64,000 nucleotides of DNA from Ceratodon purpureus (Eukaryota; Streptophyta; Bryopsida; Pseudoditrichales; Ditrichaceae). The translations under genes were made by a program, and so were the position numbers. The notes below the pieces were generated by a model that was given only the letters and a program-made list of their open reading frames with translations, had not been told where the DNA came from and did no database searches. Where the stretch lies: the NCBI GenBank assembly GCA_014871385.1, contig CM026429.1, positions 4,800,083-4,864,082 on the forward strand. Reading direction: 5' to 3'. Of this stretch, positions 23,255 to 47,265 are shown piece by piece (within the stretch, counting starts at the first letter, position 1; each line of letters opens with the position of its first letter).

Positions 23255-25120
23255 TTATAGCAGCAAAATAGAGCATCCAAAGTCAAAGTCTATTTCCGTG
23301 GTCATAGGCTCAGTCATTTGGGGGTTAAAGGTGTTTTTGATGGTAGGCAAAGGTATTTTGAAATTGTCTACCAGTAGTTTCATTGATGGAATGTGTGTGG
23401 TAGCTCTGGCGCCTGCTGTGATGACAATAAGGGGGTCAACTTTCCATCCTCTAGCGGTAATACTGGCAATTAATGGATTGTATTTGTTGGTTTTGGCTTC
23501 AAATGTTTCTGGTGAGAATCTGTCATTGCAGTATGTGAATTCAATGAACTGTATGGTAAGATTGGGGTTTATTTCTGTAGAGGGATCGCTTTGGTATGGT
23601 AAACCTTTAACGCAAAGAATATCTGGTCTAAATCTAGAGTTACAATGACATCTTTGTGTGTCACATGTGCATGGAAGTAACCAATTGGGAACGGTATTTT
23701 CTGAGGGTTTGTCATCGAAGGTGCCCGCGTTCATTAGAATAAAACAACAAGATTTTTTGGATGAGACTAGTAGTTTTCTAATTTCCCATATTGCTTTGTT
23801 GTGTCTTTTGACTCGGAGGGAGTGTATATGTTGTTGTTGGCATGTGAGTAGTACATGTAGCCTTGTATCCGGTTCATGTGAATTGCAAATGGGACATGTG
23901 ATAGAAGGAAATCTTTTTCTTCCAAAAAACATTTGTTTTATAGCTTGGACCATGTAAGTTCCCGTACGGAATTTTATGAGGCATGATTTTTGTTTGTCAG
24001 TGGTGGCTGGATTTTCTCAAAATTCGTTAAAAAGTTCATTGTCTATGTTTGCATTTCCCGTCCATTTGCAAATGTTGGGGGTTTGTATGGCCATTATTTC
24101 TAGATTGTTTTCTCTGTCATATTTTTTTATTTGTTTTTCTAGAGTTCTAACCGGTCCTTTATCTGGAACATCTATTCTCGAAGGCCAGTTATCTTTTTGG
24201 AAGTAGAACGGAGTGGCATGGGCATGTTCGTATGAGTGTAGGGCTTTTCTATGTGCTAGCTTTAGGCCTTGTTTTGCTAAGTAATCTGCTTCTTCGTTGC
24301 CGTCAATATTGATGTGTAGTCTAACTTTGTATAGTGAAATTGGTTGTGTTCTTTGTTGGAATAGTTCTACTATGGAGGCAAGTGCGGTTTGATCGGGGTG
24401 ACTATTATGTAGTTTGGAATGTTTTATTTGTGCATTAAGTAAGTATAGTACATTTAGACAGTCGGTAAATATATATGTTGGTTCGTTGGAGAATTGTGTG
24501 TTGATAATTCTGAGTGTTTTGTGTACTGCCATCATTTCTGCACGTAGTATATTTTGGTGTCTGTGGCCCTGTTTTGGGGATATTAAGACCTTTGGGGTTG
24601 TAAATACCATATCCAGCTCTTTCTCTCAGCCATTTACCGTTGCCAATTTCTTTTGGGGGTTTAAATGATCCATCTGTGTAATAACTGAATTGGGGGTGGA
24701 ATCTTAGTGGTAGATTTGTTTGGTAATTTGGTAGTTGTGGGATAGGTGTTGAGTTATTTGCGGGAGTGTTTGAGTAGTTTAATTTGGACCATTTTTTACT
24801 GGGATTGACACGGGTGTTTAAGGAAGTCAAGGATGCAATTTGTGTATAAATTTGTAATATTTGGAGATTGTTAATTGTATGAACGAGTTGATTCATTTGT
24901 TCGTGAGTACCTTTGTTGTTGTTTTGGTGGTGGATACAGAGTATTCTGAGCGTAGAAAGTACTTTTCTTTCAAGTTTAAGTTTGGGGGGAATTGTTGGCT
25001 CTTCATGTATAATGGTGTCTGCAGCAAAATGAGCAATAATGTGTGTGTCCGGGAATGGGCCGGTGTAAGGGTTAAAGTTTTGGTACCAGTTAGTATCGGG
25101 AGAGATGAGTATACCGGAGG
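23255..25120 (-). mobile_element. LINE 3' portion: RNase H, CCHC finger and restriction-like endonuclease (Dualen/RandI-like)
   Basis: Read on the minus strand. First comes an RNase H domain: YYTDGSFKPP near 24690, ILRAEMMAVHKTL, then FTDCLNVLYLL and GNEEADYLAKQG near 24290, supplying the D-E-D-type acidic residues. Next is a CCHC zinc knuckle CPICNSHEP...HVLLTC (CX2CX9HX4C) near 23880. Last is a PD-(D/E)XK fold: RFRPDILCV, then IQFIEFTYCND, then KTNKYNPLI, between about 23640 and 23510. This order (RNH, CCHC, RLE) is that of Dualen/RandI LINEs, known from green algae. The frame is interrupted by a shift near 24600 and a stop near 24015, so the copy is dead. The reverse transcriptase core is absent, so the element is 5'-truncated. 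It continues at 39521-39969 beyond the inserted transposon. Confidence 0.75.
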
Positions 25121-25775
25121 TTAAGAGCAGGTTCGGCGAAAAATAATTCCAAAAATAGCTGCCAAAAATTTTAGGATATTATTGGCAATTTTAGCCGAAA
25201 ATGATATGAATTATTTTTCAAAATTGCCGAAAAGTAAGAAATTTTTACTTCTCACTAGAATTTTACCTCTAGTGGAATCTAATATGAATTGTGAAGGAGA
25301 GAATGTGGTCATTTTGTAATCCAGTTCACTCACATTAGTTCACAAAGAATATGGGTTAAGACGTAGCAAGACACTAAGTGAGGCTTTTCAAATGTGTTGT
25401 ACACAGATTTTTGGAGTCCAATTGAGCATAGAAGATGAAGTTTTAGAGAATTGTGTTTAGCTAACAAAAGTTGAGAAATCAATCCTTCTTCTACCTCCAA
25501 CAAGTTTTATGTTAAAATGAGTCTTTATGCAAAAGATATGAACAAATCATTGCAGCCATGTAAAGATCCAAAAAAAAAAAATGCATTCATAACAGTTTTT
25601 CGGAGGTCATTTGTGCATAGAAGATTAACTTTTTTGAAATTTTGTTGGTTTAAGAAAAGATTTTAAATCAAGCAATCTTTCACCTCCAACAAATTTTATG
25701 TCGTTTGAAGACCAGCGACGCTATCTTGTGAGCGGTGAGCGGTGAGCAGTGAGCGGTGAGCACTAAATTTTCAAA
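25121..25775 (+). repeat. Left terminal/subterminal repeat of the giant transposon
   Basis: It contains the terminal word (25121-25138), repeated TTCGGC/GCCGAA words (25130, 25189 and 25226), two diverged direct repeats ending ACCTCCAACAARTTTTATG (about 25411-25515 and 25600-25702), and the block 25720-25775. That block starts GCTATCTTGTGAGCGG, continues as 7-bp GAGCGGT/GAGCAGT units and ends ACTAAATTTTCAA. The same block occurs inverted at 39111-39165. Confidence 0.75.
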
Positions 25776-26018
25776 TTTTTAGATAAAAATTTGAATTTTT
25801 TTTTTTTTTTTTGAATTTTTTGGAGAACAATCAAACAATGATGAGCAATTTAGGACACTTCGTTGGAATATATGAATGCAAATAAAATAGACCCTATAAC
25901 CGTGGAATCAATCAAATGTTAATGGTTGGAGGGAAAATCTTACTGTTTAAGTCACATACAGAATGTATATCCAATCTTTTTTAAAATTTTTTTTCTTGCA
26001 TTTCTGTGGACGCTGATA

Positions 26019-26063
26019 TGAGAGAAGAATATTTCCAAGGTATGAAAGAATATTCTTCTCTCA
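26019..26063. terminator. Perfect 15-bp hairpin downstream of the transposase gene
   Basis: TGAGAGAAGAATATT (26019-26033) and AATATTCTTCTCTCA (26049-26063) are perfect inverted repeats around a 15-base loop. They lie about 230 bp past the transposase stop codon on the minus strand. A role in 3'-end formation or small-RNA production is possible, but this is inference. Confidence 0.35.
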
Positions 26064-26289
26064 GATCCGAGACAAGAATATTCCCTAACATTGGAAGATT
26101 TTTTTTTTTGCTTTCATTTTACCACAAACACATTCGAGAGGTGGACAATATATAAATAAATAGTGACCTTTATTTATATTTTGCGGATACCAAATCCATC
26201 ACAAAGCCAAAACAAATCAATTCCGCTATTCATATAATGTATTCTTGAACTGTATTGGTCACTTAATTATACAGTCTAACCATAAGAAA

Positions 26290-29200
26290 CTACTGAAGCG
26301 GTTCAGCAACTTTGGCCATCTCCAGAACACGCATAACTTCGTTGAAGCTGAAGCTAGGGGCGTGCATAAAAGTATCAACCTTGTAATCCATCTCACATAG
26401 ATAGCGGAAGATATAATAAACATGTTTGCAGTACTTCCACTGTCCTCTTTTGCCAAGGGTTTCCGAAGTCATTTTCATGAAGTCGGGGCAAGTACATCCA
26501 GGGAAGTCCGTAATGGTGATACAATATATCGTTTCACTTGGACTCTTCAAGGAGATGACGCAGCCAAATCCTGGGTATGGAATCGATGTGACATTTGTAA
26601 TCCAATAGTTGTTCATGAGACCCGCACTGCTCCACTTGTTGCGGTGGTCGGAGGTAGGAGCGTCAGAACTTCTCCTGATGGCATATCCGTTTCGAGTCGT
26701 CGGGTGTGTATCCGGATCAACAGGAACCGGGAAATGACTCCTTGGAAGTGGCATATTAGCAGAAACCTGGAACTGACGACGAGGTGATAATACTCCACGT
26801 TGTTGGAGTTGGAAGCCGGCCTCTTCAAGAGCCAAAATCTCTTTGATGGTCAAGTTCGTGCCCATTTTCACAGGCCAAGTCTGCGGGATAGATGGCCAAT
26901 CGATCACAAACGACTTCTTTGTGCCCTTCACACATCTATTAATGTCATCGGCGCAAAACCAAAAGTCAGTAGAAATCTGGCGATCGGTTCTGCACTCCTT
27001 CTTCAGCCCTACATAGGTTGGAGCAGGCGTACCATGCGTACCTCGGCGCACTCGAGTATCGCACTTTTCATTTGTATGAGCCTGCATTGCTTGGCATTTT
27101 CGGTTAGACTTGCCGGACAGTCTGGCAATGTGCCACTTAGACGGGTCGCAATCTGTCTCCTGCACTGAAGTAGTGTGTTCAACATCGGAGTCAGGTTGAG
27201 AAAGAGCCTCCTCAATGCGTGCTCTGGTGGATCTCGTGCCATCACGAGGAATGGAATAATTCACTGTATCATAACGATGCGAGTCATGACTCGAACCAGG
27301 CGGCAAATCTAACTTCCGTTTTGTAGATCCAAAGATCTCTGCACCTTCCAAGCCTCCTTTCTTCGTCAGTAAATCCTCGGCTCCCGGGTAGGAATTAACT
27401 GCCTCAGCAATCAACTTGGGATCACCAGAGCGTTGAGCGTGGCGTAAACGAAGTTCTGCTCTGTCCGGACCTTTACCGCCCTTACCTCCCTTCAGCCAAA
27501 ACCGGTAACTTGTGATCTGCATGAATGCTCGGATCATATCATCCACTGTTGCCTCGTACAAACAGGTCATTGTATTACCTGATTGTTGAAGCCATCTGTT
27601 ATGCACGGTTTCCGCAAGGTTGCAGGAAGGCATGTCGGCTCTCTCGTCAAGGGTAAGATCCTGGGAAATACAATAAAATAAATAATGTCATTTTCAGGAT
27701 TAAAGATAAAAAGCAAGCTATACTACTACTTGACGGAAGGTATAGAGATGAATGAACTTACGAGCTGCATCGACCCTCCCCATTGTCTATACCGATAGTG
27801 CCAGAAAACCATCCAATCATTTAGATGACGCCTTCCTTCTTCAGTTGTAGCACCTGACGAAAGCCACCACCCGCGGATGACATTGTACTGCGCTTCTGCT
27901 TCTTCTTGGGTCTTCGCGTCCTTCCATACTTTGCACAAAGCTTTGTGTTGGTCTTGAAAGCTTGGCAAGATATTCCGGGAAGTAGCTCTCTGAAGGCACT
28001 TTGTCCAGTGGAAAAGACAAGTGCGCTCCCGTTCTTCCATAGGTTCATTTGGGTCTCCGTTCCCATACACCTTCCGAATAGCGTGCCAGTTGGCTCCAGC
28101 ATTGTCAGCCATGAATCCTTTGAAATTTGTGTTTTCAAGGCCGTTTTTGCGCATTACTTCATTGAGCTGGAGCCAAAATAACTCCTGAGCAGCAGCATCT
28201 TCAGATTGCATGTCACAAAGAGCAATTGTCATAACTTTACAATACTTACTGTCATAAACGTGGCATGCCATAGTGGTCCAGTCAGCTACACACCTAACAT
28301 GGTCGAACATGATCCAGCAGTCTTGAAGATCACCTCCAAGCTGCATGAGCTTCACCAGATCCACACCGCTTCATGGACGATCAGTGGACATCTTGAACAG
28401 AAACACCTTGCCTTCATTCTGTCCAGGGAATTGATTACGGTGGATGAAATCAAAGTTGGAGTAATCCTTCAGCTCCAGGATGCTATCTGTGACTCCTCTC
28501 CCTTGACGGAAAAACCTCTTCGATCCAGAAACAAAATTGCGTATATTTGGTGAAGAAAGAGTTTCAAATTGGTCCATTACAGCATCCATAGATGCTCCCC
28601 GAAGATGACTGCCTCCTGCAGTAGGACGGATCAGAGCATCGGCAAGAAACTGCTTGCTGGCCGCTAGAACGATAGCAGAGTTCTTGGCGTTAGGTGTCCT
28701 CTGAACCTCCTTAGCTATGCAGTCAAACATGATATCCATGGAATCTTGACATCTGCCTTGAGATACAGGATGTCTATGACGTCCTAAATGAATCGCCGCA
28801 CGGGTCATATCATTGTCTGAGGACGACACATGATAGATCCTAGCCTCGCACAATGCTAGACAAGTAGGACGTGTCTGACATACTTTGCACGCTAAAGTAG
28901 ATTTCTCTGTGGGGGGGCCTCCTACAAAGAAAGGTACTAAAGCTACGCCTGACCATTCAGTGTTATTTACCATCCCATTATTCCTGCAGATGTAATCACA
29001 ACTCAGGTTGGGACATTGTAAGTGTCCGGAACAGGATGACTTACGATATGTGAGGCCATACTCGTTCTTGATGTTTGTGGTCATCGTCTTGCACCAGGTG
29101 TGGCCATCATACTGCTTGCTCATCCCGTCCATTCCACCTCCGAATGAATTTGTAACTCCTTCCGGTACAGGGGGTAGCTCGAAAATCTTGTCTCCATCGT

Positions 29201-29867
29201 AAACTGGCGGTAAATACTTCACTTGTTCATGTTCGATAGTGTCAAAATCAATCTTTGATAATTCTGATCGGGAGCCCCTTCTTGATGCTGTCATTCTGAT
29301 GGAAAACATAATGCTCATGTTTTTTTTGGAAGCAGGGTGAATAGGTGGACGCCCTGTAGACAATGACGCAGACATACTAGAACGACTACCCTGTCGAGAT
29401 GGACGAGCTGAGTCTTGGGATCCACGACTCTGAAATGGATTTGACCTAGTGTCTCCTAGCTTGATCTCACTGTGAGTGTCATCATCCGAGTCACTCAACA
29501 AATGTACTGAGTTGTCACTGGGTTCAATTTTGACAGATGCGAGACCAGGAACTTGAACTGTTGACGTGGAGGGGGGAGGGGTTAAAAGAACAGTAGACTC
29601 AGACATCTGTGCATGTGATAACCCATAAACCTTGAAAGTTCCTGTGCCAAGAGTCCAGACGTAACCATCGGGTGTACTATCCTTGACTTGAAATACACAC
29701 TCAAGAATCTCACCATTATCATCAAAGATCTCTTCTTCCACGTAAATAGTCCCAGCTCTAAACCCAAACCTGAGGCTAAGTAATCGCTCCTCCACAACTA
29801 CCTTATTGTCTGGACCTACAGACATCACAAAAGGAATACCTCCATCATGAGACCGTAGAGAGGCCAT
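26290..29867 (-). pseudogene. MULE-like DDE transposase with SWIM zinc finger (one in-frame stop)
   Basis: Two exons: 29867-27762 and 27660-26290 (GTAAGT donor, TTTCCCAG acceptor, phase 0), about 1,157 codons. Order: an N-terminal domain with an Asp/Ser-rich linker; a Cys/His cluster (GHLQCPNLSCDYIC, then CKVCQTRPTC, then HLGRHRHP), a probable DNA-binding zinc region; a DDE-type core with WIMFDHVRCVADW (first Asp), FMADNAGANWHAI (second Asp) and RTCLFHWTKCLQR (the C-x-x-H helix of MULE-type enzymes); and near the C-terminus a SWIM finger CTCPDF...YCKHVYYI. A TGA at 28371-28373 interrupts the frame between TDRP and SGVDLVKL. It is probably a CGA-to-TGA change, as expected for methylated CpG decay. 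Otherwise the frame is open, which suggests recent loss. The alternative upstream ATG at 30008 seems less likely. Confidence 0.78.
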
Positions 29868-30611
29868 TCTAAGTGTACTATAGAAGATAGAAGAAGTACA
29901 ATCATGCATTGGAGGAGAGCTTCTGCAAGTAGAGTGTAAGAAGATGTGCTTGGTGTGTTCGAGGTTGTAGAGATTATATACTTGGTAGTGGTTACTGTGG
30001 TGGGACAACTAACATACTCTAAAATGAAATAGAGTGTACTGGCGAATTCAGCATGATCTGTATAGCTTAATTTAAGTTCAAATGTATCTGACAAACTGAA
30101 ATGCTTAGGCGGCTGAGACCGTCAACCTCATCATGTTTAGCTGATACTATTATATCATTCAGCAGTGAAATTGAACCGTCACAGATGTGCACCAATACGT
30201 TTATAACTATTAGCCGTCAATGTGAGCGTGATCAGGGCCACTTTAATTTAAATAATAATTTTTTTTGGAGGCAGAGTTCCATATCTTACTATATATTAAG
30301 GAGAGATATCATACCAAACCTTGTATTTAGTGTTCACAAATTTCAACATAAGATCATGTCATTCCCTTTACATAGATTTGGTGGTCAATCTAAAATGGTC
30401 TGTACCTAACAATTTAAATATATACTACTATTATATATAACGAAGATACTGACACGAACATTAGCAATCACAGGATGCTCATGCATGTATTATAGGTCTG
30501 AAAGGTTTAGGGTACTCAGAGTCCACTATAAAACTGGTACTAAGCACTTGTCGACTCCAAAGCATACGTCTTAGTTAGAATTATGTTTATGGGAGAGCGT
30601 TACTGAGACCT
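29868..30611. promoter_or_regulatory. Divergent promoter region between the two transposon genes
   Basis: About 745 bp separate the predicted start codons of the transposase (minus) and the ParB-methyltransferase gene (plus). The region is AT-rich with several TATATA-like words (for example 30291 and 30420-30440) but no single certain core promoter. The head-to-head arrangement suggests joint control of the two genes; this is inference. Confidence 0.4.
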
Positions 30612-33600
30612 ATGAGGGAAGAGGAAGAGCCAAGCCCAAGAGTAGTGAGGGCTCCTAGATCATGTACGACTAGAGGTAGAGGGAGAAGGCGAGGTTCAGG
30701 TTTTAGTAATCCGAAGCAGGTGGCGGCCCAGAAGAGACGGAAGGAGAAAGTCGATCTTGCTCGTATTGCAGAAGTGGATTATAGTTCAGATGATCCCAAG
30801 CATCTCAAAATCAAAGCATTGGCCAGTGTATGTCAGGTATACCATACCATGCAGTCTGCATTGTGTAATTGACTAATTGTAAGTATGTTAATTTTTATTT
30901 ATTTATTTCTTAAATGGATTCAGCCGCGGCTTTGTTTATTTAATCTAGTTGTCAAGGACATTGAGAAGCACTGCACACTGCTTGCACAAAATATTAATTA
31001 TGCGATCATACAATCTACATGAATCTTAATTATTGAATGTACGGAGTTAATGAATGTCCAGATTCTCCCTAGTACCAGGTTGACTTTTCCGTTACTTAGT
31101 ATCTTCGGTTTGCAGGTCGGGTTGCCGTCGGGAGAGGGAGGAGGCGACGCACTTGAAGCTGGGGACCCTTCTGAAATCGTCTTCGGCACCAGCAATCACT
31201 CTAGACCTGTAATGACTCTAATTTCTGAATGTTGTGCAAATTTGGTACTTTCGATCTCTTGTCACTAATTTTGCTTCGTCTTCTTTTTGCTGCAAACTGT
31301 TTGGGTTAGAACCGCACATTGGGATTGAATGCGCATGTTATGAAACGAATGTGGTTTCTAAAACCTAAAGTGAAGTATGCAGGAATTTAAAATCGTAAAA
31401 AATTGCTTGGGTTGGTTCGCAGCGTACCTCGCCGTCAGGAGCTGGTGTTGTCGAGGAAGTCCACCGCAGCGACCCACGTCTGTGTGTGCGGAAGGAGGCT
31501 TCGAAGGAGTCTGTAAGTGCTGCTGGGACGAGCTGCATTAGGACTTGGGATTTTCTGTTTTCTAGTGATGGTTTGTTGCTGTGTTGCCGAATGGAGATGG
31601 TCTATTCTGCTTGTGTCGATTCTAACTAGAACCCTAATATGGATTGAGGAAAAACAAGTGGGGGGGTTCGAGGAGGAAGGAATCCTTGAAGCTGTTTGCG
31701 AAGTAGAAGATTCGGTGAGGCTTGGCTTGAAGAATATTTCCTGGGCAATCAATTGTATTTAGGGTGCGATGTGCAAGCTGTGACCAAAGTGCTTTTGCGG
31801 GTTTAGGGTGGATGGATTGTTATTCTAACTTATTGGTTTGTAATTGTTCATGCAGCAATGGCAGGGTTTTGTTGAGGGTGGAGAAGAAATCAAGATAACT
31901 GGTGCTGCTGAATCGCAAGCTTCCGATCCGTGGGCACTTTCGGTAAGTTTGCATGTTGAATTTGATGACACTTTCAATCAGTATCTATGATTTCTGAATG
32001 TTTCGTGATTCACTGAATATGGAGTACATACTAACTGTGACATTTTCACTACTGCAGGTAACTCAAATTGTAAAAACACCTAGGTTAGAGCGGACTGTTC
32101 TTCAGGAGGTGCAGGAAGACAAATCGAATTTGAACTCGAATTCACTGAAGGTACCACTGGAATATAGTGCTGGTCTAGTCTTCTAACAGTTATGGTCTTA
32201 AACGGTTAGTGGTAGCGTATACGATGTCCGTACATGTGGAATGTGGAGGTGTGCACCTGGTTGGGCATTTCATTCTTGTTTGCATCTGTCCTCCTTGGCT
32301 CAATGATTGTGGTTGTAATGTGCGTGGAGTGTGATTGCGAATGATGAGTGAGTCTGAGCTGTAGAGGTTAGATTTGAATAGGCATTTAGCATTTGTTATG
32401 ATGCGTCATTTAATGCTTAAGTTTATGCTAACCTGGATCATGTTGTGCTTGCAGATGAGCTGCGACCAGGGCATGGAGGAGGTGCACAGTGCGTCCACAA
32501 GCATGGATCGTGACGATGCTGGTTTGGCCGAGATGGAAGACGAGCTCCGCAAGGCCGTGCGGGGTAGCTCACATCTTGCACTTCAAGAAGCAATTGACAT
32601 ACCAGGCATGGAGATTGATGTGCCACTGTGTAGGATGATTCCTATGAAGGATGTGAGGGAGCCATTGAAGACCGACATACAGAAGCTAAAGGCAGAATTC
32701 AGCCATAGGTACAAGCGAGGTTCATCTTGCTTCTATCTATCTCTTAAGAGCTTCAGAATGGAAGAGTCAACTGTCAGCGAGGTAGAGAGGTCTTCCTGGT
32801 CCGACTTATGGCGCAAGGAGGACATTGAGTTCGAGACACGGTTGCTGTCAAATCCAGACTTGAAGAAATACTCCAATCGGTTTTTCTATGTATGGGACGG
32901 CAATCATCGCCATATTGCTTGGTCAGATTTGATCAACACTCTTCATAAGCATGATGCTTCTTTCCATGTTTCAGCCCGCTCAATCATCATCAACGTGACG
33001 CCTGCAAATTGCAATATGTTGTTGCATGCCATGACAGATTGGAACAAGTAAGTAATTCATTCACTTTAAACTCATTACTAAGTAAACTACATAAATTTCT
33101 TGAATGCAATTTATTTCTCTATTTACAAATGCTTGATGATTCAACTAAATGGATTGACTGTCAACTATTTGCAGAAAAAATGAAGTTGACCATGTTGTTC
33201 AGCATTGGACCCATGAGGTGAAGCGGGTCCAACAGCTAGGTCTGCTCGACTTCGACCAGCTGAAAGGTTTGGTAAAAGATGCAGATTTGCAAGCAAGCAT
33301 TCTAGAGTGGGGGCATATGAAGAACAGAAAGTGGTATCATCTGTTATATGATGCATTCATTGACTTCTTATACGAGGTGAGTCTGTTCAATTGATTTAAG
33401 TTGTCAACTATGTATGGGTAATGACTTCAACTATGGTTAAAGGCAATACACTAACAAATCATTTATGTAATTTAGAGAGAAATATCTGTTGCCCAAGAGG
33501 AAGCCATTCGGATATATAGGGACACATTAGTCACAGGCCGCGGAGAGGACAAGGTGGGAAGTCCCTCAGAGCTCCTTGCAGTTGCCAAGAAGGCAGTAGC

Positions 33601-36600
33601 GGTAAAGAAAACATCCCTCTCCACTAAATTGGACCGATACTTGGCCATTGCCAACCCAGCTAATGGCGAAGGTTTCTTAAAGGAGGTGTGTATATTTCCA
33701 ATCCTTATCATAGGTCTCCTATTTTCTTTTTTTATACCTCATATTTTTTTTGATATTTGCTAATTTTTTAGATGGTGCGTTCCAGATAAACGCAGCCTTT
33801 GGTCTCAGTTGGTATATCAAGCGTGTTTCTGCGTGCTCCTTGTTATGTTGTGTGCTCCTAGTTAATTTCCGTTTGCTTGTGATTGAGTAAGGTGACTGAT
33901 GTTTGGTTGCTGCTGCGTGCTGGATGCACGCAGCCTTGTGCTGTTTTTTAAAAATCCATTTGATCCTGTGTGCAGTTGCGTGCAACCAGCACGCAGCCAC
34001 GCATTGCTTTTTTTTTTTCAACGCCAACCACCCTCACCTCGGGTCATGGTTTGAGCTTGCTTGTTGCAAAAAAGTGGTTTCACAGTGCACCCCCGGAGGC
34101 TTCCTCGGATCCGAGGGGTGCTTGGAAGTCTTTGTCTAACTTCACTTTTTTTGTAAAAGTCCATTTGTTTCTCACGGTTGCTTGACTGCTTCTCACTGTT
34201 GTTTGCCTCGTCGTTAGATTTTGGGAGCAGCTGCGTGCATCCAGCACGCAGCGTTTGCTTGTGATTGAGTAAGGTGACTGATGTTTGGTTGCTGCTGCGT
34301 GCTGGATGCACGCAGCCTTGTGCTGTTTTTTAAAAATTCATTTGATCCTGTGTGCAGCTGCGTGCAACCAGCACGCAGCCACGCAATCCTTTTTTTTTAA
34401 AACGGTCGATGAAATGTCCGCATGCTGAAGGTTTTCTCTCTTCGACAACCACGTGCTCAAGTTTGATTTCGGAGGAATGCTTTATTTTCATCTCTGGCAG
34501 TTTTGACCTGCTCTTCGACTTTGGAGTCCCATCTATATTGAACATGAAGACATCGAACTGTGAGGTAGCCAACAGGGTGATAACGAGTTGGTCACCTTCG
34601 GCAAGGTTGTTGGAAACTACGCAAGCTTTCCATCCTCTGCTGATCACAACTTCTGGGACCACACGTTGCGGAGGACATATAGCGGACTGCAGAGATCCAC
34701 GCAGCGCAGCGCTTGTTTTCGAAGTCACCGGAGTTGCTGGATGCCTGTTACGGGGTTCAATTTTGGGGGGGGTTGTCTGAAAAAAGTGAAACTCTTTGGC
34801 ACCCCTCGAGGCTCCCTCGGATCCGAGGGGTGCTTGGACCTGTGTCACTAAGAACACTTTTTTTTGAAAAGAGCCTCAAGCACCTGGCTTGGATCTGTTT
34901 TTTTTTCCTTGCTTCAGTTTCGGAGACTCTCCTGTGATTATACTCGTCGTCATGGGGAGCTGTTGCGTGCGTCCAGCACGCAGCATTTGCTTCTTTTTGT
35001 TGATGCTGCTTGTTTTATTGAAATCTTTGTTTGCTGCTTCATGCGGGGCATAGTGAATGCTGCAGCGCGTTATTTAATTGCCTGCTGTTTTCTTTGATGC
35101 TGCGTGCTGGATGCACGCAGCCTTGGGCGTTTTTCCTGTTTTATTTTGGTGAATTTTTGAATTGATTAATTGTTTCCTTCTTAATGGAGGGTATAATACT
35201 CGCTGATTATTTCTTGCCTGCTGCTTGCAGGCTACTTGCGATGTGTATTTTGTACTCCTGCTAGAAACTTGATTAAGCTTATAGAAATGACCTTACATAT
35301 TTTCATTTCAAAGCAACTATGTCTTTGTAAGTGTGTATGTTTAAGGGGTCTATCTGACTCAAGTGAGGGTATTATTTTATGCAGATCATTCGCCATTTTG
35401 ATGTTTATCAGAGCGACGCAGAAATGACCCCAGAGAAGTTGCAACTTTTTGCAAGCGCCAAGGTTGCTCCCAAGTACAAAGAGAGATGGCTGAAGTGGTG
35501 GAACATGAGCAAGCAGAGTCGGGTGGAGTACAACTTTCCTCCAACACCAGCTTTTGATTTAGTTCTTCGAGTTTGGATTGATCAAGCAGCATTTTGGGCT
35601 GGGGTAAGCACAATCTTAATTTCTCTCATAAGTTAAATTGAAATAATGTCTTATAATGTTGCAATTGAAATTAATACCACATTCTTTCTAATATAATGGA
35701 TTCTAATATTTGTGGTTTGTTTCTTATCCCGCAGTTAGAAGAAGAGGCTAGCCTTCGTTATGCCAAGATTGTAGAGGAGGATATCATAGTTCTGAAGACA
35801 GAGGATTTACCTAATCCTGTAGATGATATTGGCTCGTGGATTGAGGCTCATTCTCTGACTCTTTGGGGGAAGGCCTTCACTGGTTTCTTTCCTAAGGCTG
35901 GCACTTTTACTAAGAAAGAGCCATTTCTCAACTAAGCAGGGGCTGAGAATGCTATGAAGAGGGTTATATTGAGGTACTTTTGGAGGGAGTTGGTAGTCAA
36001 GGGTGCCATTGATAGGAATGATATTCCACAGCGTTTTAAGAAATGGGTGGATATTTCCAGCTCTGAGTGCATTTTTACAGATTATTAGAGGAGGCATTTT
36101 CGAGCTCCACATCTTGTTCAATGTTGTTGGTACCTTGAATTGAAGGAGAATGAGAAGTGTCCTGGGGATGAGAGAGCTTTGAAGGCTAGCTGTGACAACT
36201 TGGTGCTGCAGCTTGGGGATGAGAATACCATGAATTTGGAGGAGACTGCCTCGGAGGTTGGAGATGATGCTTCTCTTTCTGAGAAGCAAAGGAAGAAACT
36301 AGCAGAGAGGAAGGCAAAGGCTGAGGCAAGGATGAAGGAGAAGGAGGACAAGAAGAAGGAGAAGGAGGATGGACTCAAGCTCAAGAGAGAATTGGCAGCA
36401 AGGAACAGGGAGCTGGCCAAGCTTGTTTTGAAGGAAGGGCCAGAGAAGATGTTGACTCATGTTGGCATTTCTCCTTCAGGAAGCAGCATGGCTGCTGCCA
36501 TAGTTCCTGTAGCTCCTCAGGTGCCTCTTTTTTCTACCCCTATGCCTTCTCAGACTATCTACACCATTCCATGCTCGCAGTTGGATGAGGTAGACACTAG

Positions 36601-38048
36601 GGTTGAGATCATCAATGACTCCCCTATGGGCATTTTGGAGCTGTTTAATGATCTATCAGAGGGGGATGAGCCTGAGGTTTGGATGAAGGTGAAGGATTGG
36701 ATCAAGGAGAATCTCGGTAGCAAGGCTAGGAATTTTGGAGGTGAAGAGGCTGAGGCTGCTGTGGACCTCATCATTTTTGATGTTCCAGAGGATTTACCAG
36801 TTCCAGGTTTAGGGCAGGATGGTGAGATTCCATTCTGGAACAAGCACCCCAAGATTTCAGCAGGGAAGAAAATGGAGTCTTCATGGATTAAGGCCCATTT
36901 TGAGTTTGCTATGCAGTTTCTGCAGGATGATGGAGCTTTGATTGTATTCTACCCTGATTCAAGGTTCATTTCAAACGAGCTTATTTCCTGGGCAGAGTGG
37001 GCTAACTTTCAGGAGGAGGCCAAGTGGTTTGCAATCAATGGCCTGCCATTGACTATTCCAGATCGTTATCCACGGGAGCACAAGACTTTTATGGTCAAGT
37101 GCTTCATCAAGATGGAGAATGCGGAGGAGGTATTCCAAGGTCTAAGTTCCAGTTTCATGATAGGGCCGAGCTTGGTGCCCAAGGCATCAAGCTCTCCACT
37201 GATGGTCACTGTACTAATTTGATTACTGCAGATACTCTGACTTATAATTCAGAGACAGGTTTGCCATTCAGAGGTCCTAGAGAGAAGACTTCTAACCTCT
37301 TGCAGGCTCTGATTGATCTCTACACTGTAGAGAATGACATTGTCATGGATCTCACAGCTTCTACAGGTATATTTTAGTCTTTCTGTTTTCTGATTGTTGT
37401 TTTTTGTATTTCTTTTTATTCTTTAATCTCATTCAATTGAGCTTCAATTTGTCTGCAGGTGCTTCCATTCGAGCATCGAAGAGTCTCCGGCGCCATGTCA
37501 TAGGCTTTGAGTATGACACCACCTTGTACAAGCAGGTGTTGCTGCCTCTTCTTCCAAGCGCGGAAGAGGTTGAGTCTGCTCCAATTCCTGTGCCTTCACC
37601 GAAGAAGAAACGTGCCATTGAATCAGATGATGAGCCTGAGAGGAAGACTGCCCCCAAGCGTTCTTGTAAGTAAGTCTCTACATTCATTTGACATTTGTTT
37701 GTTTGTTTAAAAAAATTTAGTTCAATATTTATTAAACTGTGAAATGTCATGTGCAGTCGGAAGAAAGCGTTGAAGAATGACACTAGTGGCTCTATTATCT
37801 CGCGCCATCTTAGCAAGATAAAGAGTCCAGTTAGACCTTTAGAGCTTCCACATTATGCAGAGATGCAGGCTCAAGCTTATTTAGCTGCTCCTTCTCCATC
37901 TATTTCATCTGATAGAGATAGCATTTGTCGTGATGCTGAGATTTATCTTGACATAGCTGCAGAAGTTGCCAGAGTGGTATTATCTAGTGATAGCGATTCT
38001 TATGATGGTTGGATTGGTACTTGTAGCGATGACGAGATGTCTACTTGA
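30612..38048 (+). pseudogene. Transposon-encoded ParB-like domain plus beta-class DNA amino-methyltransferase-like protein
   Basis: Twelve exons with matching phases: 30612-30836, 31116-31208, 31423-31512, 31856-31942, 32058-32150, 32455-33047, 33175-33376, 33476-33685, 35385-35603, 35735-37366, 37459-37669 and 37757-38048. The start is basic (TTRGRGRRRGSG). Exon 6 has a ParB/sulfiredoxin-like fold: CRMIPMKDVREPL, a helix, then FFYVWDGNHRHIAWSDLI. Exon 10 has a Lys/Glu coiled coil (about 36290-36430). It is followed by the methyltransferase: motif IV region DLIIFDVPEDLP (canonical DPPY reads DVPE), LQDDGALIVFYPDSRF, then FRGPREKTSNLLQALIDLY and VMDLTASTGAS (SAM motif I), then GFEYDTTLYKQ. The order IV-X-I is beta class (N6-adenine/N4-cytosine type). 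Exon 10 has stops at 35935 and 36087 and a frame change near 37130. Function is unproven; DVPE suggests loss of catalysis. Confidence 0.72.
33871..35130. repeat. Hairpin-rich repeat cluster in the large intron of the ParB-methyltransferase gene
   Basis: Intron 8 (33686-35384, about 1.7 kb) is far longer than the others. It holds two direct copies of a block of about 140 bp (33871-34012 and 34253-34400, offset 382). Palindromic words of the form CTGCGTGC-TGGAT-GCACGCAG occur in either orientation near 33914, 34230, 34295, 34963 and 35099. Related CAACCAGCACGCAGC words lie near 33978 and 34365. CCTCGGATCCGAGGGG, itself a palindrome, occurs near 34102 and 34816. A nested small element seems likely; its family is not identified. 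Confidence 0.65.
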
Positions 38049-38334
38049 TCATTGCATATTTACTCTATTTTGTTATGTTTTCCCTACTTATATATTATAT
38101 GATAGCTTTGGCTTTGGATTTTATATATTGCCTTAACCTCACTTTACTCTACTTGTGTGTGAATTTCTCTACAGGCCATATGTTTTAAATTGACTTCATA
38201 CATGATTGAATCATAATGATGGTACTAATGTTTTTAGAAGTTGAACATTCCTTGGTTACAGCTTGAAGGCATCACAATAAAATGTGGTTTTCTTAATACC
38301 TTTTTCATATATTTTTCCCTACCCTATTATGCAA

Positions 38335-38422
38335 AACCCCTAGTAATTACTTCGGGTACTTGGGCACCCCTAGTAATTACTTGGGGTACTTGGGCACCCC
38401 TAGTAATTATTTCGGGTCCCCT
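38335..38422 (+). repeat. 30-bp tandem repeat, about 2.8 units
   Basis: Units begin with CCCCTAGTAATTA at 38337, 38367 and 38397 (period 30), each followed by CTTSGGGTACTTGGGCA or a shortened form. The repeat lies between the ParB-methyltransferase gene and the right end of the transposon. Confidence 0.85.
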
Positions 38423-38574
38423 ACAAACAGAAATCCCAAGTCGGTTTTAGGAGTAATTAACTCTCAGTTAGTTAATTCTGCACCTTTAAATCAGTCATCC
38501 TACACTTGGATGAAAAATTAGTCATCCCAAAAAACTAGAAGCCACATTCATCTGCAATAGCCGTTGTGTATATC

Positions 38575-38920
38575 CGTTCATCACCTAATTTTGTTTTTTT
38601 TTCTTTTTATCTTTCTTCTTTCTCTCCTATATATATTCATTCATTTTTTTTTTGTTTATTTTTTTTAGTTTAATTCCTTTTTATGTTTTATCTTTTATTT
38701 TTTTAATTTATTTTTTTGTTTATTCGTTGTTTTTTATCTTTCGTTGTTTTATTTATATTTCTTTCTTTTCTTCTTATTTTCCTTCATTTTTTTATTTTTT
38801 TCCCCTATATTCCTTTTCACTATTTATTTTTAATCCATTTTCTTTCTTTGATTTAGTTATTTTTTTCTCTTTTCTTCTTTTTTCTTTATTTTTATTTTTT
38901 CCTCTTGGTTGTCATGGCGT
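38575..38920. repeat. T-rich low-complexity stretch
   Basis: About 350 bp dominated by T runs with scattered C and A (TTTATTTTTT, TTCTTTCTTTT). It is inside the transposon. Frames here are an artefact of composition. Confidence 0.8.
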
Positions 38921-39110
38921 GGGATTGATAGGATATATGAAAAATTAATCACAATTTATTCGGATATGAATCGGGTGTAAATTTCTACATTTATCAATTT
39001 GGAAGCCATTCTTTTTAGAATATACCCTAAAACACTTTCCACGGTCACAGGTCCCGTATATGCCATGTCATGCAAAATCATCTCAAAATATCGAATAAAT
39101 AGTCAAAAAA

Positions 39111-39520
39111 TTGAAAATTTAGTGCTCACCGCTCACTGCTCACTGCTCACCGCTCACAAGATAGCATTCCAGGTTTGAAGACTATATGCAAAAGTTATGT
39201 GTGTTATAAAAAAGAAGACTAACTAAGCGCTTCACCTCAAAGTTCACATTTCCCATATGCATTGTTGGACACAACTCCACTCCACTTGTATAAAGTAGAG
39301 AGCATTCTCACCTCGTCACTCACATCTAACTTATAATCGAATGCATGAATGTTGTACATTATACAAGCTTAAGTAGCAATGTAAGAAATGAATAAAGCCG
39401 AATTTTTAAAAATTTAAATAGAAAGATGCCAAAATTTTAAATATACTATTTTTAGGTGCCGAACACTAAAATCATAAATTAATTAATTATTCGGCAAGAG
39501 AGCGCCGAAGCTGCTCTTAA
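39111..39520 (-). repeat. Right terminal/subterminal repeat of the giant transposon
   Basis: On the minus strand this reads TTAAGAGCAGCTTCGGCG at the end (39520-39503). TTCGGC/GCCGAA words follow (about 39491, 39453 and 39398). Then comes the block 39165-39111, GCTATCTTGTGAGCGG plus GAGCAGT/GAGCGGT units ending ACTAAATTTTCAA, which is inverted relative to 25720-25775. The block is 0.35 kb from this end and 0.6 kb from the left end; the difference fits the extra direct repeat at the left. Confidence 0.75.
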
Positions 39521-39969
39521 CCTACGGTAGTGATAGTGTTTGGGTCATTTTTGCCGCAAGGCAGGCCCAATGAATGGCTTGTTGTAAGTCGATTTCATTG
39601 TGGGGGTGAGCGTAGTCAATTCCTTTCCATTTATGATCAAATGCTTTCCCTAGGGAGCCAAATATTATATCTCGTGAAAATGGTGAGCAAAATTGGGTAA
39701 ATTGTGTACAGCATGTAACCGGTGATGAAAAGTAAGATTGGTGGATGTTGAATGTTACTATTAGTAAGTTTAGTATTTCAGTTGGTATTGTATATTGAGC
39801 ACATTTAGGTGGATCATTTTTTGGAATACGATATTTATATCTTTGATATAGCCACACAAATTCAGTTTCAAATGATTGAGTGGATGGCTCAAGGCGGTGT
39901 GGGGTATTTTTTGCATGTTGATATTGTTTCCATAACCATAGTAGTCTATTGTTCTTTGTAATTCTTCTA
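39521..39969 (-). mobile_element. LINE fragment upstream of the RNase H part (5'-truncated)
   Basis: On the minus strand an open frame runs from 39966: RRITKNNRLLWLWKQYQ, later FVWLYQRYKYRIPKNDPP, and on to AIHWACLAAKMTQTLSLP at the transposon junction. It is collinear with SGILISPDTNWYQNFNPYTG on the far side of the insertion (25118 downward), so both are parts of one LINE. The 5' truncation point at about 39969 abuts exactly the start of segmental duplication copy 2. Confidence 0.6.
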
Positions 39970-40700
39970 GGTTTGTAGAGAGGTTTTTTTCTTATGGAGA
40001 TGAGTAGCGGTGGTTTGAGATAGTTTGAGGGGCCAGGAATGATGACATTTGCATCCTTTTGGAAGCGTTATATAAGAATCAGATGAACCAGTAGCCACCA
40101 TTTTTAGGGTTTTTGTTCACTTTTGATGTTTCTAGCAAGTAGGTTAGTGTTTTGAGATTTGGATGTTGAATGGACATTAGAATTCGTATTAATAGTTGGA
40201 GAACTCGTTGTTGCGTTGCCTTCGCGGCGTGTGAGTTCAGGTTCTGTTCAAGCATAAGTTCCTTCTGTGAGTTTAAACGCTTGTTGTAGTAGGATTGAAG
40301 TTTTGGATTATCTAGGGGGGACACCTCTTTTCACGCATCAGGATACGCCTTGCTTACAGAGCTACGTGGTCTAAGGTCACTAATTCAATGATGCGATAGC
40401 AAATAAAAGTGGAGTATATCAGCTTCCTGGTTGTAGTAACATGCCATGGAATTTATTACTGCCCCATACAGATTGACCTATTGTTTGGTTTTAGACGCGA
40501 AGTCAATTTGACTGACTGTTTTTCATGGTTTGTGTGCATGTAATGTGGAGTATTCTTGTGTTTGAACATTATCTTAGCGCTGTCGTCTTTTGGTCCCTTT
40601 TTACATCTGGTTGGACGATGGTGGAGAGATTCCTGCACTTTCTCAGTTCTCATTGCCTGTGCAATAATCTGGGTCTTTTGCAGATTGTTCAGTACCAGCA

Positions 40701-42257
40701 ATGGCGACCGACATGTTCACCGTGTCCCATACTGTGGGACGGGTGCTATGTTGCATGTGTGGAGTGGCCATGGCACCAAACGCAGCTAACATGTGCGTGA
40801 CTTGTCTGCGCTCACAAGTGGACATCACAGAAGGTTTACAGAAGTTGGTCACTGTTCTTTACTGCCCAGAGTGCGGCCGTTACCTCCAGCCGCCTCGGAC
40901 GTGGGTGAAGGCGGAGCTCGAGTCAAAGGAGCTTCTTACCTTCTGCATTAAAAGGTTGAAGAATATCAACAAAGTCCGACTGGTCGATGCAGGATTCATT
41001 TGGACAGAGCCTCACTCGAAGCGGCTCAAGGTGAAGCTGAAGATTCAGAAAGAGGTTATCAATGGTGCAATTCTGGAGCAAGCATACATAGTGGATTACA
41101 CAGTGGAGGATCACATGTGTGAGAAATGTTCGCGTGTGGCTGCGAATCCTGATCAGTGGATCGCCTGCGTGCAAGTGAGGCAAAAGGTTGAGCATAAGAG
41201 GACCTTCTTTTTCTTGGAACAGCTGATTATCAAACACAATGCTGCCGGAGCCGCAGTAAACATCAAGCAAATTCACGATGGGATGGACTTCTATTTCGCA
41301 AACAAGAGTCATGGCTTGAAACTCCTTGATTTTCTATCAAACGTTGTTCCCATCAGGAGCAGGCATGACAAGCAGCTAGTGTCTCACGACACGAAATCCA
41401 ACACGTACAATTACAGATTTACCATGTCTGTGGAGATATGTCCAGTGTGCAAGGATGACCTTATATGTTTGCCTCAGAAGGTGGCAACCAGTCTAGGCAA
41501 CATCGGACCTCTGGTTTTATGCATGCAGGTCTCCAACACACTGCTACTACTGGATCCGCAGACGTTGCGAACTGCGTACATGGATGCCAATCAGTACTGG
41601 AGAACAGGGTTCAGACCTCTCCTTCACGCCAAGCAACTTGTAGAGTACATCGTATTAGACATTGAAACTGAGCCAGGTGTGTCCTCTCGTGCTGGGCGGT
41701 ACTCATTAGCAGAAGTGCAGGTGGCAAGAAAAGCCGATTTTGGGAAGAACGATACTACTTTTACGGCACGCACACATCTAGGTCATCTCTTGAACGTTGG
41801 AGACTATGCTTTGGGTTATGATGTATACGCCGCCAACCCTAATGATCCAGAATTGGAGAAGTACCGTAATTTGGATCTTCCAGACGTGGTTCTTGTTAAG
41901 AAGAGTTACGAGGAGAAGCGGGCTAGGAGACGTGGAAAGCCAAGACCATGGAAGCTCAAAGCATTGGACATGGAGATCGATCCCAGTGCTCTCAGGCAAG
42001 ACCCGGAGAAGGCAGTTGGGGAGTACGAGAAGTTTTTGGAAGAACTTGAAGAGGATCCGGAAATGCGTGCTAAGATTGCTCTCTACCGAGATGCTCAATA
42101 CAGGGCACAATCAGAAACGGCTTCCATGATTGACGGAGAGGGCGATGAGCCTCCTTCAGTGCCGCTCGAGGAGTTGTTAGCGGATCTTCGGATTGACCAC
42201 GAAAGTGCTGGCGACGCGTCTGAGGCTCCTGAAGATGAAGAAATGGACGACGCTTAG
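40701..42257 (+). CDS. NMD3: 60S ribosomal export adaptor NMD3, copy 2
   Basis: Single-exon frame of 518 codons encoding the same protein as copy 1, with the same zinc cysteines (CCMCG, CVTC, CPECGR) and acidic tail. I counted about 22 base differences from copy 1, all synonymous and all before 41862. The rest of the gene and the first 319 bases of 3' flank are identical. The homologous leader exon and promoter (equivalent of about 1560-2178) are missing. The DNA immediately upstream is the LINE fragment and then the giant transposon. If expressed, this copy must use a new promoter. Complete protein conservation suggests that it is functional, or that conversion keeps correcting it. Confidence 0.92.
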   Translation: MATDMFTVSHTVGRVLCCMCGVAMAPNAANMCVTCLRSQVDITEGLQKLVTVLYCPECGRYLQPPRTWVKAELESKELLTFCIKRLKNINKVRLVDAGFIWTEPHSKRLKVKLKIQKEVINGAILEQAYIVDYTVEDHMCEKCSRVAANPDQWIACVQVRQKVEHKRTFFFLEQLIIKHNAAGAAVNIKQIHDGMDFYFANKSHGLKLLDFLSNVVPIRSRHDKQLVSHDTKSNTYNYRFTMSVEICPVCKDDLICLPQKVATSLGNIGPLVLCMQVSNTLLLLDPQTLRTAYMDANQYWRTGFRPLLHAKQLVEYIVLDIETEPGVSSRAGRYSLAEVQVARKADFGKNDTTFTARTHLGHLLNVGDYALGYDVYAANPNDPELEKYRNLDLPDVVLVKKSYEEKRARRRGKPRPWKLKALDMEIDPSALRQDPEKAVGEYEKFLEELEEDPEMRAKIALYRDAQYRAQSETASMIDGEGDEPPSVPLEELLADLRIDHESAGDASEAPEDEEMDDA

Positions 42258-42951
42258 TAATGTGCAGTCACCATCCTTTAAACCCAAAATGTTTTTGCAC
42301 CAATTTAGTGATGAATGTGTTCAAGTCCCAGGTGACATCAAACAGAGGATATGCTCACTATGTACTATCCAACTCGGGAGGTCGAGTCTTAGGGGCCCGC
42401 TGCTGCTCTATTGTGAGGCGTGAGCATCTTTGACATGTGATCCACATCAACTTACCATCATAGGATTCGATTTGTATACCAGAGGTTAGGGACAGGCTTT
42501 CTTCACCGGTGCATACTAACACAATCAACACAATGTAACTTGCAGAAAGAGACGAGTGTGCGTGTTTTGATTGGTTCAATAGATTACATAGTGGAATTAT
42601 ATGTCAGTCGAGAACTCTGATAGGCAAGACCGAACCTTCTTGCTGTAAGCTTTTTGAGTGGCTGCAGATGAGATTGTCTTTGGGTTATACTTGATTCTGG
42701 AATCGCTGTACTCTACATATGGACTTAATTTGGAATCCTGGTCAATATGAGCTTTGCTTTAAAACCTCCTCGGAAGCTGCCATGACAACCATATCTTGCT
42801 GCATCGATTTACTTCACAATGCTAGGCAATCTTGCTGCTCTGATGTAGTTGAGTACTGCCTTGTGCTTTAAGCGTTCACGTTGCAGAAGTTATCTTGTGC
42901 GCTTCAGATATGCAGTACGCTTGTAGTGTTCATTCAACATTCACCATCACC
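42258..42951 (+). other. NMD3 copy 2 3' UTR and spacer
   Basis: Identical to copy 1 up to 42576, then diverging at scattered sites. No other gene seen. Confidence 0.45.
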
Positions 42952-43085
42952 AAGGTACATTTTAGTCATTCAACAAGAGGAGCATCGCCACTCCTCGACG
43001 CACCCAATGGGCAACTCGCAATCGACCGGTTGTTGCCTGTTGTTGCCGACACGCCTCGCCTCGCCTCTCAGATGTTCTGTACAGT
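42952..43085 (-). pseudogene. Fragment of the dynein heavy chain terminal exon (copy 2)
   Basis: Counterpart of 5184-5310. It carries the dynein stop codon and its 3' flank (CAAGGTACATTTTAGTC), the HWVRRGVAM-coding segment and the RTSERRG-coding word with a CGCCT expansion. It has a small extra segment at its far side relative to copy 1. Non-functional. Confidence 0.78.
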
Positions 43086-43587
43086 CAGGTACACTTCATT
43101 TACCAATTCTAGTCGCAGCCACAGTCATAGTGGAAAAAACTGGAAAATTTTGGAAGGTAAGAACTTGCTCAAAAATTGATGGATTTTGGAATTCCAAATT
43201 GCATTGGAATGCCAGTGAGGTGTACTTCAATATCACAAAAAAATATACATATAAACTCGAAAATTAAATAAGCATTTGTGTTTTCCTTGTACACTATCTA
43301 TCACCTAGTATTCCCAACCCCTAATTGAAATGACTGCTTTATTTAATTGGGCACAGTTGAAATGAGGCGTTTCAACCGCTCCAAGGGACTTCATCCCATA
43401 CTTTATAACAATTCTTGCTTGTTTATTGGCATTTATTGTCATTGTCCAAGTTTTATGTCCACAGTAAACGATACCAAACATCGCAAATCTCTACGAATCC
43501 TGCTGAAGGATGGCTGAATTCATTTTGAAAACACTTCACCATAACCGCTACAATCGGCTGCTGTTGTTCTGTTTGCGACATCGGTCG
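43086..43587. other. Spacer between dynein fragment and LecRLK copy 2
   Basis: AT-rich sequence homologous to 5311-5810 with small indels. No gene recognised. Confidence 0.35.
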
Positions 43588-47036: not shown

Positions 47037-47265
47037 CAGAAGCGGAACAAACTAGTGGCGACATCTCAATCCTTCCGAGCGTTGCTGAAGCACCCCAGCA
47101 ACACCCGCAAGGATTGCGAAATCGTCACACGCCTCCAGTGAGAGCGGAGAATCGGAAGAATGGAACAGCAACAATGTGCAGAACGTGCAACAACAACAAG
47201 TGCTCGAGTTCGATTGACACCCCGATCACCCAAATTAGAACCAGGCTCCATTGCGTCAAGGTCTA

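Follow-up and report, generated by a model that had tools for sequence, protein, structure and literature searches.

The locus raises the question of whether the 14.4-kb unit that lies within another open reading frame (ORF) of the window (the whole 64-kb stretch of DNA analysed here) is one mobile element, and what its two genes could have done for it. Its description as a transposon bounded by terminal inverted repeats (TIRs), which combines a MULE-clan transposase with a gene resembling DNA amino-methyltransferases, is supported. For the further explanation, namely that positions 25112–39529 represent a single decayed cut-and-paste DNA transposon whose second gene is a methyltransferase-derived accessory gene, most likely similar to VANC, we see about an even chance.

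Ends of the element and insertion site

The unit is bounded by 27-bp inverted repeats (25112–25138 on the plus strand, 39503–39529 on the minus strand), which are identical at 25 of 27 positions. Aligned locally, they score 44, a value not reached by any of 4932 random window pairs, the best of which scored 41. Inverted termini had been proposed in a first-pass annotation and were confirmed, with the true outer edges located 9 bp further out on both sides. These edges yield an in-frame empty site: excising exactly 25112–39529 joins the minus-strand flanks into a single open frame of 404 amino acids, a frame match that would occur by chance in one case in three. The right flank (39525–40067, minus strand) is the upstream half of the interrupted ORF with a PCIF1_WW domain (PF12237, 2.8e-11), and the left flank (24020–25111, minus strand) holds the ORF continuation and the RNase H domain of a LINE-like element (RNase_H, 1.7e-8). 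In a profile search of the junction protein, the PCIF1_WW match did not reach into the left flank, and the empty-site argument is therefore one of frame and domain order, not of a single continuous profile match. The proposed interruption of a LINE at both edges holds as the interruption of an ORF whose flanks reach the element on either side, and the transposon would have inserted into a LINE-like ORF.

Further inward, two blocks (25720–25780 and 39105–39165) match in inverted orientation over 61 bp at 96.7% identity, as the same annotation had claimed. Both contain tandem arrays of GTGAGCG detected by TRF, with about five units on the left (25728–25761, plus strand) and a mirrored array on the right (39124–39157, minus strand), the latter also seen in the inverted alignment with the left block. 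The GTGAGCG pattern was matched 11 times in the window at an expectation of 0.55; four of these matches belong to the left array, four to the right one, and three lie elsewhere.

A convincing target-site duplication was not found: no repeat within the set limits symmetrically adjoined the TIRs, excision at their exact edges left no duplication, and no 8-bp duplication with up to one mismatch was seen at the element edges. By eye, a 7-bp pair with 5/7 matching positions can be recognized just outside GGTTAAG, lying within the 27-bp TIR. The missing duplication would fit a composite origin, in which the ends belong to different units and enclose either a host gene or a pair of unrelated insertions, and palindromes and 147-bp repeats that share one intron of the second gene (see below) suggest some nesting. 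However, the ends match, the subterminal arrays are mirrored, and the empty site is in frame at the exact TIR edges, and we regard a composite as very improbable. A search of the window with Rfam matched nothing, and the 20-base core of the TIRs had no exact match in viral contigs. With an observed/expected ratio of 0.61, the element did not depart from the CpG range of the surrounding DNA, and this measure is uninformative.

Transposase gene

Two divergent spliced genes, modelled as gene A (29867 to 26290) and gene B (30612 to 38048), start 0.75 kb apart inside the element, which bears out the earlier description of two divergent multi-exon genes. Exon 1 of gene A (27762–29867, minus strand) encodes a Cys/His-rich N-terminal region and, according to hhalign, the first part of a DDE-type transposase core, and it is interrupted by the single in-frame stop of this gene at 28371–28373. 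Exon 2 (26290–27660, minus strand) encodes the end of the core with the motif LAETVHN, whose E we take to be the putative catalytic residue, and a C-terminal CxC...CxH pattern, which we consider SWIM-like.

Against a MULE/IS256 profile, gene A reached an hhalign probability of 66.7% and a score of 41.2, compared with at most 23.5 for 40 shuffles, and the second D and the CxxH were aligned. With hmmsearch, it scored above 1000 shuffles, though weakly (6.9 vs. 4.7 bits), and the Pfam MULE family gave no match even at E ≤ 10. Gene A had been introduced as a SWIM/DDE transposase. A DDE core of the MULE/IS256 clan stands, whereas the SWIM finger was not confirmed: its spacing is readable, but the Pfam SWIM score of 6.7 bits stays below the cut-off of 19.6. 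SWIM or other zinc fingers are frequent in MULEs, not universal, and TIRs are missing from some MULE groups. A transposase core and TIRs are present in this element, and a target-site duplication was not found. Since a duplication of 8–11 bp is a hallmark of MULEs in the accessible text of PMC6446971, formal membership fails on this point. Presumably, the element was mobilized by the gene A transposase, with the 27-bp ends and the mirrored GTGAGCG arrays as its binding sites.

Two matches of the transposase exon were judged irrelevant, a plasmid match at E 0.7 and the PDB chain a-iTHR-201 at 0.0057, in which no stretch passed alone. AlphaFold2 modelled the transposase exon with a pLDDT of 41.1.

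Gene B: methyltransferase domain and the ParB question

Gene B lies on the plus strand and begins with six exons in phase 0 (30612–30836, 31116–31208, 31423–31512, about 31652–31714, which is uncertain, 31856–31942, and 32058–32150), flanked by GT donors and AG acceptors except for the acceptor of the fourth. Three exons with the motif VWDGNHR follow (32455–33047, 33175–33376, and 33476–33685), then one at 35385–35603 and the long exon 35735–37366, which encodes the bulk of the methyltransferase domain, including motif IV (DVPE). In the next exon (37459–37669), alignment placed the C-terminal portion of motif I (GASIRAS...GFEYD), and the last exon (37757–38048) ends with TGA. All lesions of gene B fall into the long exon, namely stops at 35933 and 36086 and a frameshift at about 37130–37150. 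Judged by eye, stops could be parts of unrecognized short introns, which is most plausible for the first one at 35933. With stops in both genes and a frameshift in gene B, this copy is broken.

The read-through protein contains a C-terminal N4/N6 amino-methyltransferase domain (PF01555, 2.5e-9, 37.9 bits at a cut-off of 26.7), and a match to CcrM was found at 2.9e-4. The domain aligned nearly full length with a profile of phage-type D[I/V]PY enzymes (hhalign 96.5%, columns 12–241 of 261), compared with an hhalign probability of 5% for ParB-methyltransferase fusions. The nearest relatives found were D[I/V]PY amino-methyltransferases of phages and bacteria (phiRM10 gp48, Javan1, Lrm1, and SMO_1P), with 20–23% identity over the domain. 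In terms of sequence similarity, it can be concluded that the gene B methyltransferase is nearer to such stand-alone enzymes than to the fusions.

These relatives are encoded by stand-alone genes with D[I/V]PY and GxG intact, whereas both motifs are altered in gene B. Motif IV reads DVPE, with D[I/V]PY present in 60/64 relatives and the other four outside the search pattern; motif I reads TASTG without GxG, which is present in 57/64 relatives, the other seven again being outside the search pattern. Gene B contains neither a catalytic motif of the form (D/N/S)PP(Y/F/W) or D[I/V]PY nor the AdoMet motif GxG. Because of these changes, catalysis by the encoded protein is doubtful, as is a marking or protection of element copies by methylation, and binding without methyl transfer appears at least as likely. 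An active self-marking enzyme, which in intact copies would methylate adenine-N6 or cytosine-N4 of the element's own DNA, would agree with the nearly full-length domain and with the order of motif IV before motif I, which is kept as in the CcrM-like class. However, with motifs IV and I altered in this way, we consider it quite improbable; this reading overlaps with our main explanation, and the likelihoods given here need not sum to a whole.

The first-pass annotation had described gene B as ParB plus a DNA amino-methyltransferase, of which the methyltransferase was substantiated and ParB was not. In Pfam, NCBIfam, and the PDB, no ParB-like match was obtained, the PDB returning only an antibody chain (E 1.2), and ParB was rejected as unsupported after searches of these databases and PHROGs, tblastn against phages, and comparisons with two ParB alignments (hmmsearch and hhalign) in which the window protein was used both whole and after excision of a loop. 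The region annotated as ParB (exons 32455–33685) reached hhalign scores of 10.9–13.9, and shuffles reached 18.6–20.9. All 10 weak PF02195 matches passed the same test with scores of 51–70 (canonical alignment) and 42–232 (fusion alignment), partly by construction as PF02195 itself had picked them. An AlphaFold2 model of exon 32455–33048 was unusable (pLDDT 40.5). In favor of a ParB-methyltransferase fusion as in bacteria and phages, such fusions exist (L180), with 22/34 viral-contig loci spanning nearly the whole L180 length, and VWDGNHR is a motif of the kind found in ParB/sulfiredoxin folds. Given the scores at or below those of shuffles and a methyltransferase without close kinship to that family of fusions, we rate this origin as extremely improbable. 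For the parts of both genes that were tried, no relatives were confirmed in viral or bacterial contigs; two candidates for the gene B exon (L001 and L002) appeared to reflect a single short motif that recurs by chance in other ORFs of phages.

As the element is known here from one copy, gene B may have been carried along by chance. It would then be a captured gene, either from the host or acquired horizontally, that is split into many short exons and plays no role in the life cycle of the element. This would suit its multi-exon structure, in which the first six modelled exons are all in phase 0 and resemble those of a host gene, its two stops and frameshift, and the tendency of MULEs to take up fragments of host genes, as described in the accessible part of PMC6446971. 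However, gene B extends from an ATG to a terminal stop and is divergently oriented at a short distance from gene A, and decay does not single it out because gene A is broken as well. A passenger is, in our view, rather unlikely.

Repeat arrays, possible role of gene B, and known systems

One intron of gene B (33686–35384) harbors a feature absent from the earlier annotation, which is a 23-bp palindrome GCTGCGTGC-N5-GCACGCAGC in seven plus-strand copies between 33912 and 35121 (starts 33912, 33975, 34230, 34294, 34357, 34962, and 35099), five exact and two with one mismatch. A search of the 64 kb at up to three mismatches returned these seven matches, all within this intron, at an expectation of 0.00 (100 shuffles), and no exact match was present in viral contigs. 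The same intron contains 147-bp repeats, and the palindromes could stem from a nested repeat that has nothing to do with gene B.

Under our main explanation, gene B would derive from a phage-type DNA amino-methyltransferase joined to a long N-terminal extension, and presumably travels regularly with this transposon family. Most likely, its product would act like VANC, i.e., as a self-encoded DNA-binding protein that recognizes motif arrays in the noncoding DNA of the element, the candidate targets being the GTGAGCG arrays or the seven intronic palindromes of gene B itself. By altering the chromatin or methylation state at these arrays, it may allow the element to escape silencing. The most specific version, a land-plant DNA transposon family encoding a sequence-specific factor that modifies or binds DNA, descends from a phage-type amino-methyltransferase, and has its cognate palindromes in the intron of its own gene, is put forward tentatively and is unlikely on present evidence. 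If true, the transposon would label itself and be, so far as searched, the first one carrying a DNA methylase reported in land plants.

Among the matches listed in a literature search, with subscription journals mostly outside its scope, no title described a plant DNA transposon carrying an amino-methyltransferase or ParB; to our knowledge, reviews of eukaryotic adenine methylases may touch on methylase-carrying plant transposons. The pairing of a transposase with a gene derived from a phage- or bacterial-type methyltransferase, known here from one copy, is possibly new to land plants. Should it recur between the same ends, a methyltransferase would join the DNA-modifying enzymes known from DNA transposons, and the element, with its candidate target arrays, would offer a defined system for asking whether transposons evade silencing via such proteins.

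For comparison, VANDAL21 of the Arabidopsis MULEs is likewise MULE-type and combines a transposase with accessory genes (PMC5735166, accessible text). Its VANC motifs form tandem repeats upstream of VANA and in introns of VANC and VANB, and we count such motif arrays, in accessory-gene introns and upstream of the transposase gene, among the similarities to the present element. VANC is not described as a methyltransferase in the accessible text of that paper, and the methyltransferase-derived gene B is likened to it by description; VANDAL21 also differs in its 8–11 bp target-site duplication, with none found at our element. DNA-base-modifying enzymes are also carried by the fungal TET/JBP-encoding DNA transposons (KDZ, hAT, EnSpm, and others), though their enzymes are 5mC-oxidizing dioxygenases in fungi, in contrast to the methyltransferase fold of this land-plant element, and Zisupton (KDZ, Kyakuja-Dileera-Zisupton) has an 8-bp duplication (PMC12730594, available portion). 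DNA methyltransferases are encoded by the DNMT-encoding retrotransposons of dinoflagellates and charophytes and by Dam-like DIRS elements, including in a streptophyte alga (PMC5890265, as far as its accessible text goes). These are retrotransposons with C5 or Dam-type enzymes, in contrast to a PF01555 domain in a TIR-bounded DNA transposon. Finally, the DDE transposons in the accessible part of PMC3627910 encode a methyltransferase, as does the present element, but unlike it they combine a Mariner transposase with an added endonuclease and Methyltransf_26 or C5 enzymes in a viral host.

Termini and insertion site

The 14.4-kb unit at 25112-39529, which we read as a decayed DNA transposon, is bounded by 27-bp terminal inverted repeats, the left one at 25112-25138 and the right one at 39503-39529, which agree at 25 of 27 positions. 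The alignment of this pair scored 44, a value equaled by none of 4932 random pairs of window stretches (maximum 41). The inverted termini of the first-pass annotation hold, with the edges moved 9 bp farther out by the excision result below. Inward of these repeats, the matching subterminal blocks described earlier were recovered as mirrored GTGAGCG arrays, with four pattern matches at each end and three elsewhere (11 observed in the window versus 0.55 expected). A 123-bp direct repeat (72%) was also observed in the left subterminal region (25390-25512 and 25579-25701).

Minus-strand ORFs reach the element from both flanks, with an RNase H domain on the left (1.7e-8) and a PCIF1_WW domain (PF12237; 39525-40067, 2.8e-11) on the right. 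Excising exactly 25112-39529 resulted in one open frame of 404 aa spanning the junction, and three other edge choices, for which no duplicated bases were taken out, gave at most 256 aa; a frame match across the junction arises by chance in one case out of three. The in-frame excision supports a single inserted unit. The inner edges with an 8-bp duplication, reckoned by hand, would also be in frame, yet the two 8-mers are dissimilar. Two results count against a single insertion. Firstly, enumeration of candidate pairs, allowing no mismatch at 5-6 bp, at most one at 7-8 bp, and at most two at 9-11 bp, found no target-site duplication next to the terminal repeats; its sole yield was three staggered pairs of 9-10 bp, each with two mismatches and none lying symmetrically against both repeats. 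Secondly, the PCIF1_WW profile match in the joined flank peptides stops short of the left flank. The earlier proposal of an interrupted LINE is supported by the restored frame and the order of the domains, but not by a PCIF1_WW match continuing leftward.

With the element excised, PCIF1_WW lies in frame upstream of RNase H in the flanking ORF, which would make this a LINE-like element that carries a PCIF1-type domain; PCIF1, the namesake of the family, is an mRNA cap adenosine methyltransferase. Also within this ORF, approximately 440 bp beyond the right end, begins a segmental duplication of about 7 kb (2179-9305 and 39970-47246, in pieces 90-98% identical) that contains an NMD3 gene and a legume-lectin receptor kinase. 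Elsewhere in the neighborhood, LRR, NB-ARC, and TIR-domain ORFs (12859-17592, minus strand) resemble a TNL resistance-type gene or receptor, and the C-terminal domain of a dynein heavy chain (52830-53363, minus strand, 5.5e-60) suggests motile sperm, as dynein heavy chains are consistent with a plant having swimming sperm. Together with the NMD3 gene and the lectin kinase, these domains indicate that the window comes from a land plant.

Transposase and methyltransferase-like genes

As originally described, the unit holds two divergent multi-exon genes, namely gene A (minus strand, two exons, 29867-27762 and 27660-26290) and gene B (plus strand, 30612-38048, approximately 13 exons). Gene A, the transposase gene, contains a single in-frame stop (28371-28373), and Pfam returned no match for its whole protein, even at E ≤ 10. 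Against a MULE profile of 23 sequences (out of 30 bacterial loci matching Pfam MULE, chosen for an ORF with a QxCxxH motif), the gene A core reached 66.7% probability and a score of 41.2 in hhalign (40 shuffles, at most 23.5), and the aligned block covers the second catalytic D together with CxxH. By hmmsearch, the core stood above all 1000 shuffles, but weakly (6.9 versus 4.7 bits). We take IMFDHVRC to hold the putative first catalytic D and LAETVHN the putative final E. AlphaFold2 gave a low-confidence model of the core exon (pLDDT 41.1). Of the SWIM/MULE-like transposase proposed at first, the MULE likeness is borne out by hhalign, while a CxC...CxH near the C-terminus is readable as a putative SWIM finger, with a Pfam SWIM score of just 6.7 bits.

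The splice sites of gene B are canonical, save for an uncertain acceptor of the fourth exon, and its long exon carries two in-frame stops (35933 and 36086) and a frameshift near 37130-37150. With the stops read through as X, the protein matched PF01555 at 2.5e-9 (37.9 bits, cut-off 26.7), confirming the DNA amino-methyltransferase domain assigned to the companion gene; the domain alone matched CcrM at 2.9e-4. The phage collection gave 82 records matching the domain, 16 of them covering at least 80% of it. A further profile was built from relatives in phages and bacteria, using 64 out of 70 loci and leaving out six as short or unmatched. In hhalign, nearly the whole domain aligned to it at 96.5% and 9.5e-10, with a score of 68.1 versus at most 22.7 in 30 shuffles; the profile was seeded from a close match of the gene B query, which biases this comparison in its favor. 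Motif IV reads DVPE versus D[I/V]PY in 60 of the 64 relatives (four outside the search pattern), and motif I TASTG versus GxG in 57 (seven outside the pattern). Since both motifs are altered, the enzyme may, judging from its sequence, be inactive or changed. Downstream of gene B lies a 30-bp tandem repeat of 2.7 copies (38336-38417).

Proposed ParB region and intron palindromes

The assignment of ParB to gene B exons 32455-33685 was not supported by the comparisons. The region had no ParB match in Pfam or NCBIfam, and searches returned only an antibody chain in PDB (E 1.2), two short matches in phages (E 8), and one unnamed family in PHROGs (E 0.17). From 23 ParB-methyltransferase fusions (the query fusion L180 and 22 of 34 viral loci), a profile of the ParB part did not report the region, and the whole-length profile ranked it 682nd, below hundreds of its own 2000 shuffles. 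Its hhalign scores were 12.2 against the fusion profile (60 shuffles, up to 20.9) and 10.9 against a canonical ParB profile built from 31 of 64 loci (60 shuffles, up to 18.6), while ten weak PF02195 matches used as positive controls scored 42-232 and 51-70, respectively; these controls (10 of 20 loci) were chosen since PF02195 finds them, and sensitivity is shown only to that level. Removing the loop brought no improvement in the ParB scores, and the AlphaFold2 model of the exon was too poor to use (pLDDT 40.5). The gene B methyltransferase did not group with the fusions either (5%; 24.6 versus at most 20.5 in shuffles). The motif VWDGNHR is a lead only.

The gene B intron at 33686-35384 contains seven copies of the palindrome GCTGCGTGC-N5-GCACGCAGC (33912-35121; five exact, two with one mismatch), with none elsewhere in the 64 kb at up to three mismatches and none in 100 shuffled sequences. 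A 147-bp repeat (97%) accounts for part of this spread. The array may be the candidate target of gene B or else a nested repeat. As RNA, a 735-nt stretch of the intron is predicted to fold much more stably than 20 shuffles (z -8.1), as expected from the palindromes. A second palindromic block, CTCGGATCCGAG, occurs twice (within 34087-34159 and 34799-34871).

Relation to known elements

The element was seen as a single, broken copy, and exact scans of viral contigs found neither the core of the terminal repeats nor the intron palindrome. DNA-modifying enzymes in transposons are already known: TET/JBP enzymes are carried by fungal DNA transposons (PMC12730594), retrotransposons of dinoflagellates and charophytes encode C5 methyltransferases and DIRS elements Dam-like ones (PMC5890265), and methyltransferases occur in giant-virus Mariners (PMC3627910). 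Words starting with "methyl" are absent from the main text of a broad MULE survey (PMC6446971). If it recurs, the pairing of a methyltransferase with a transposase would be a new variation on this known theme.

The nearest working model is VANC, the accessory protein of Arabidopsis VANDAL21. VANC binds a short motif that recurs in tandem arrays within noncoding stretches of its own element, among them the introns of VANC and VANB (PMC5735166), and it causes methylation loss at these arrays (PMC5735166; PMC10398659). By analogy, gene B might act in the manner of VANC, as this element likewise combines an accessory gene with motif arrays in the intron of that gene and near the ends.
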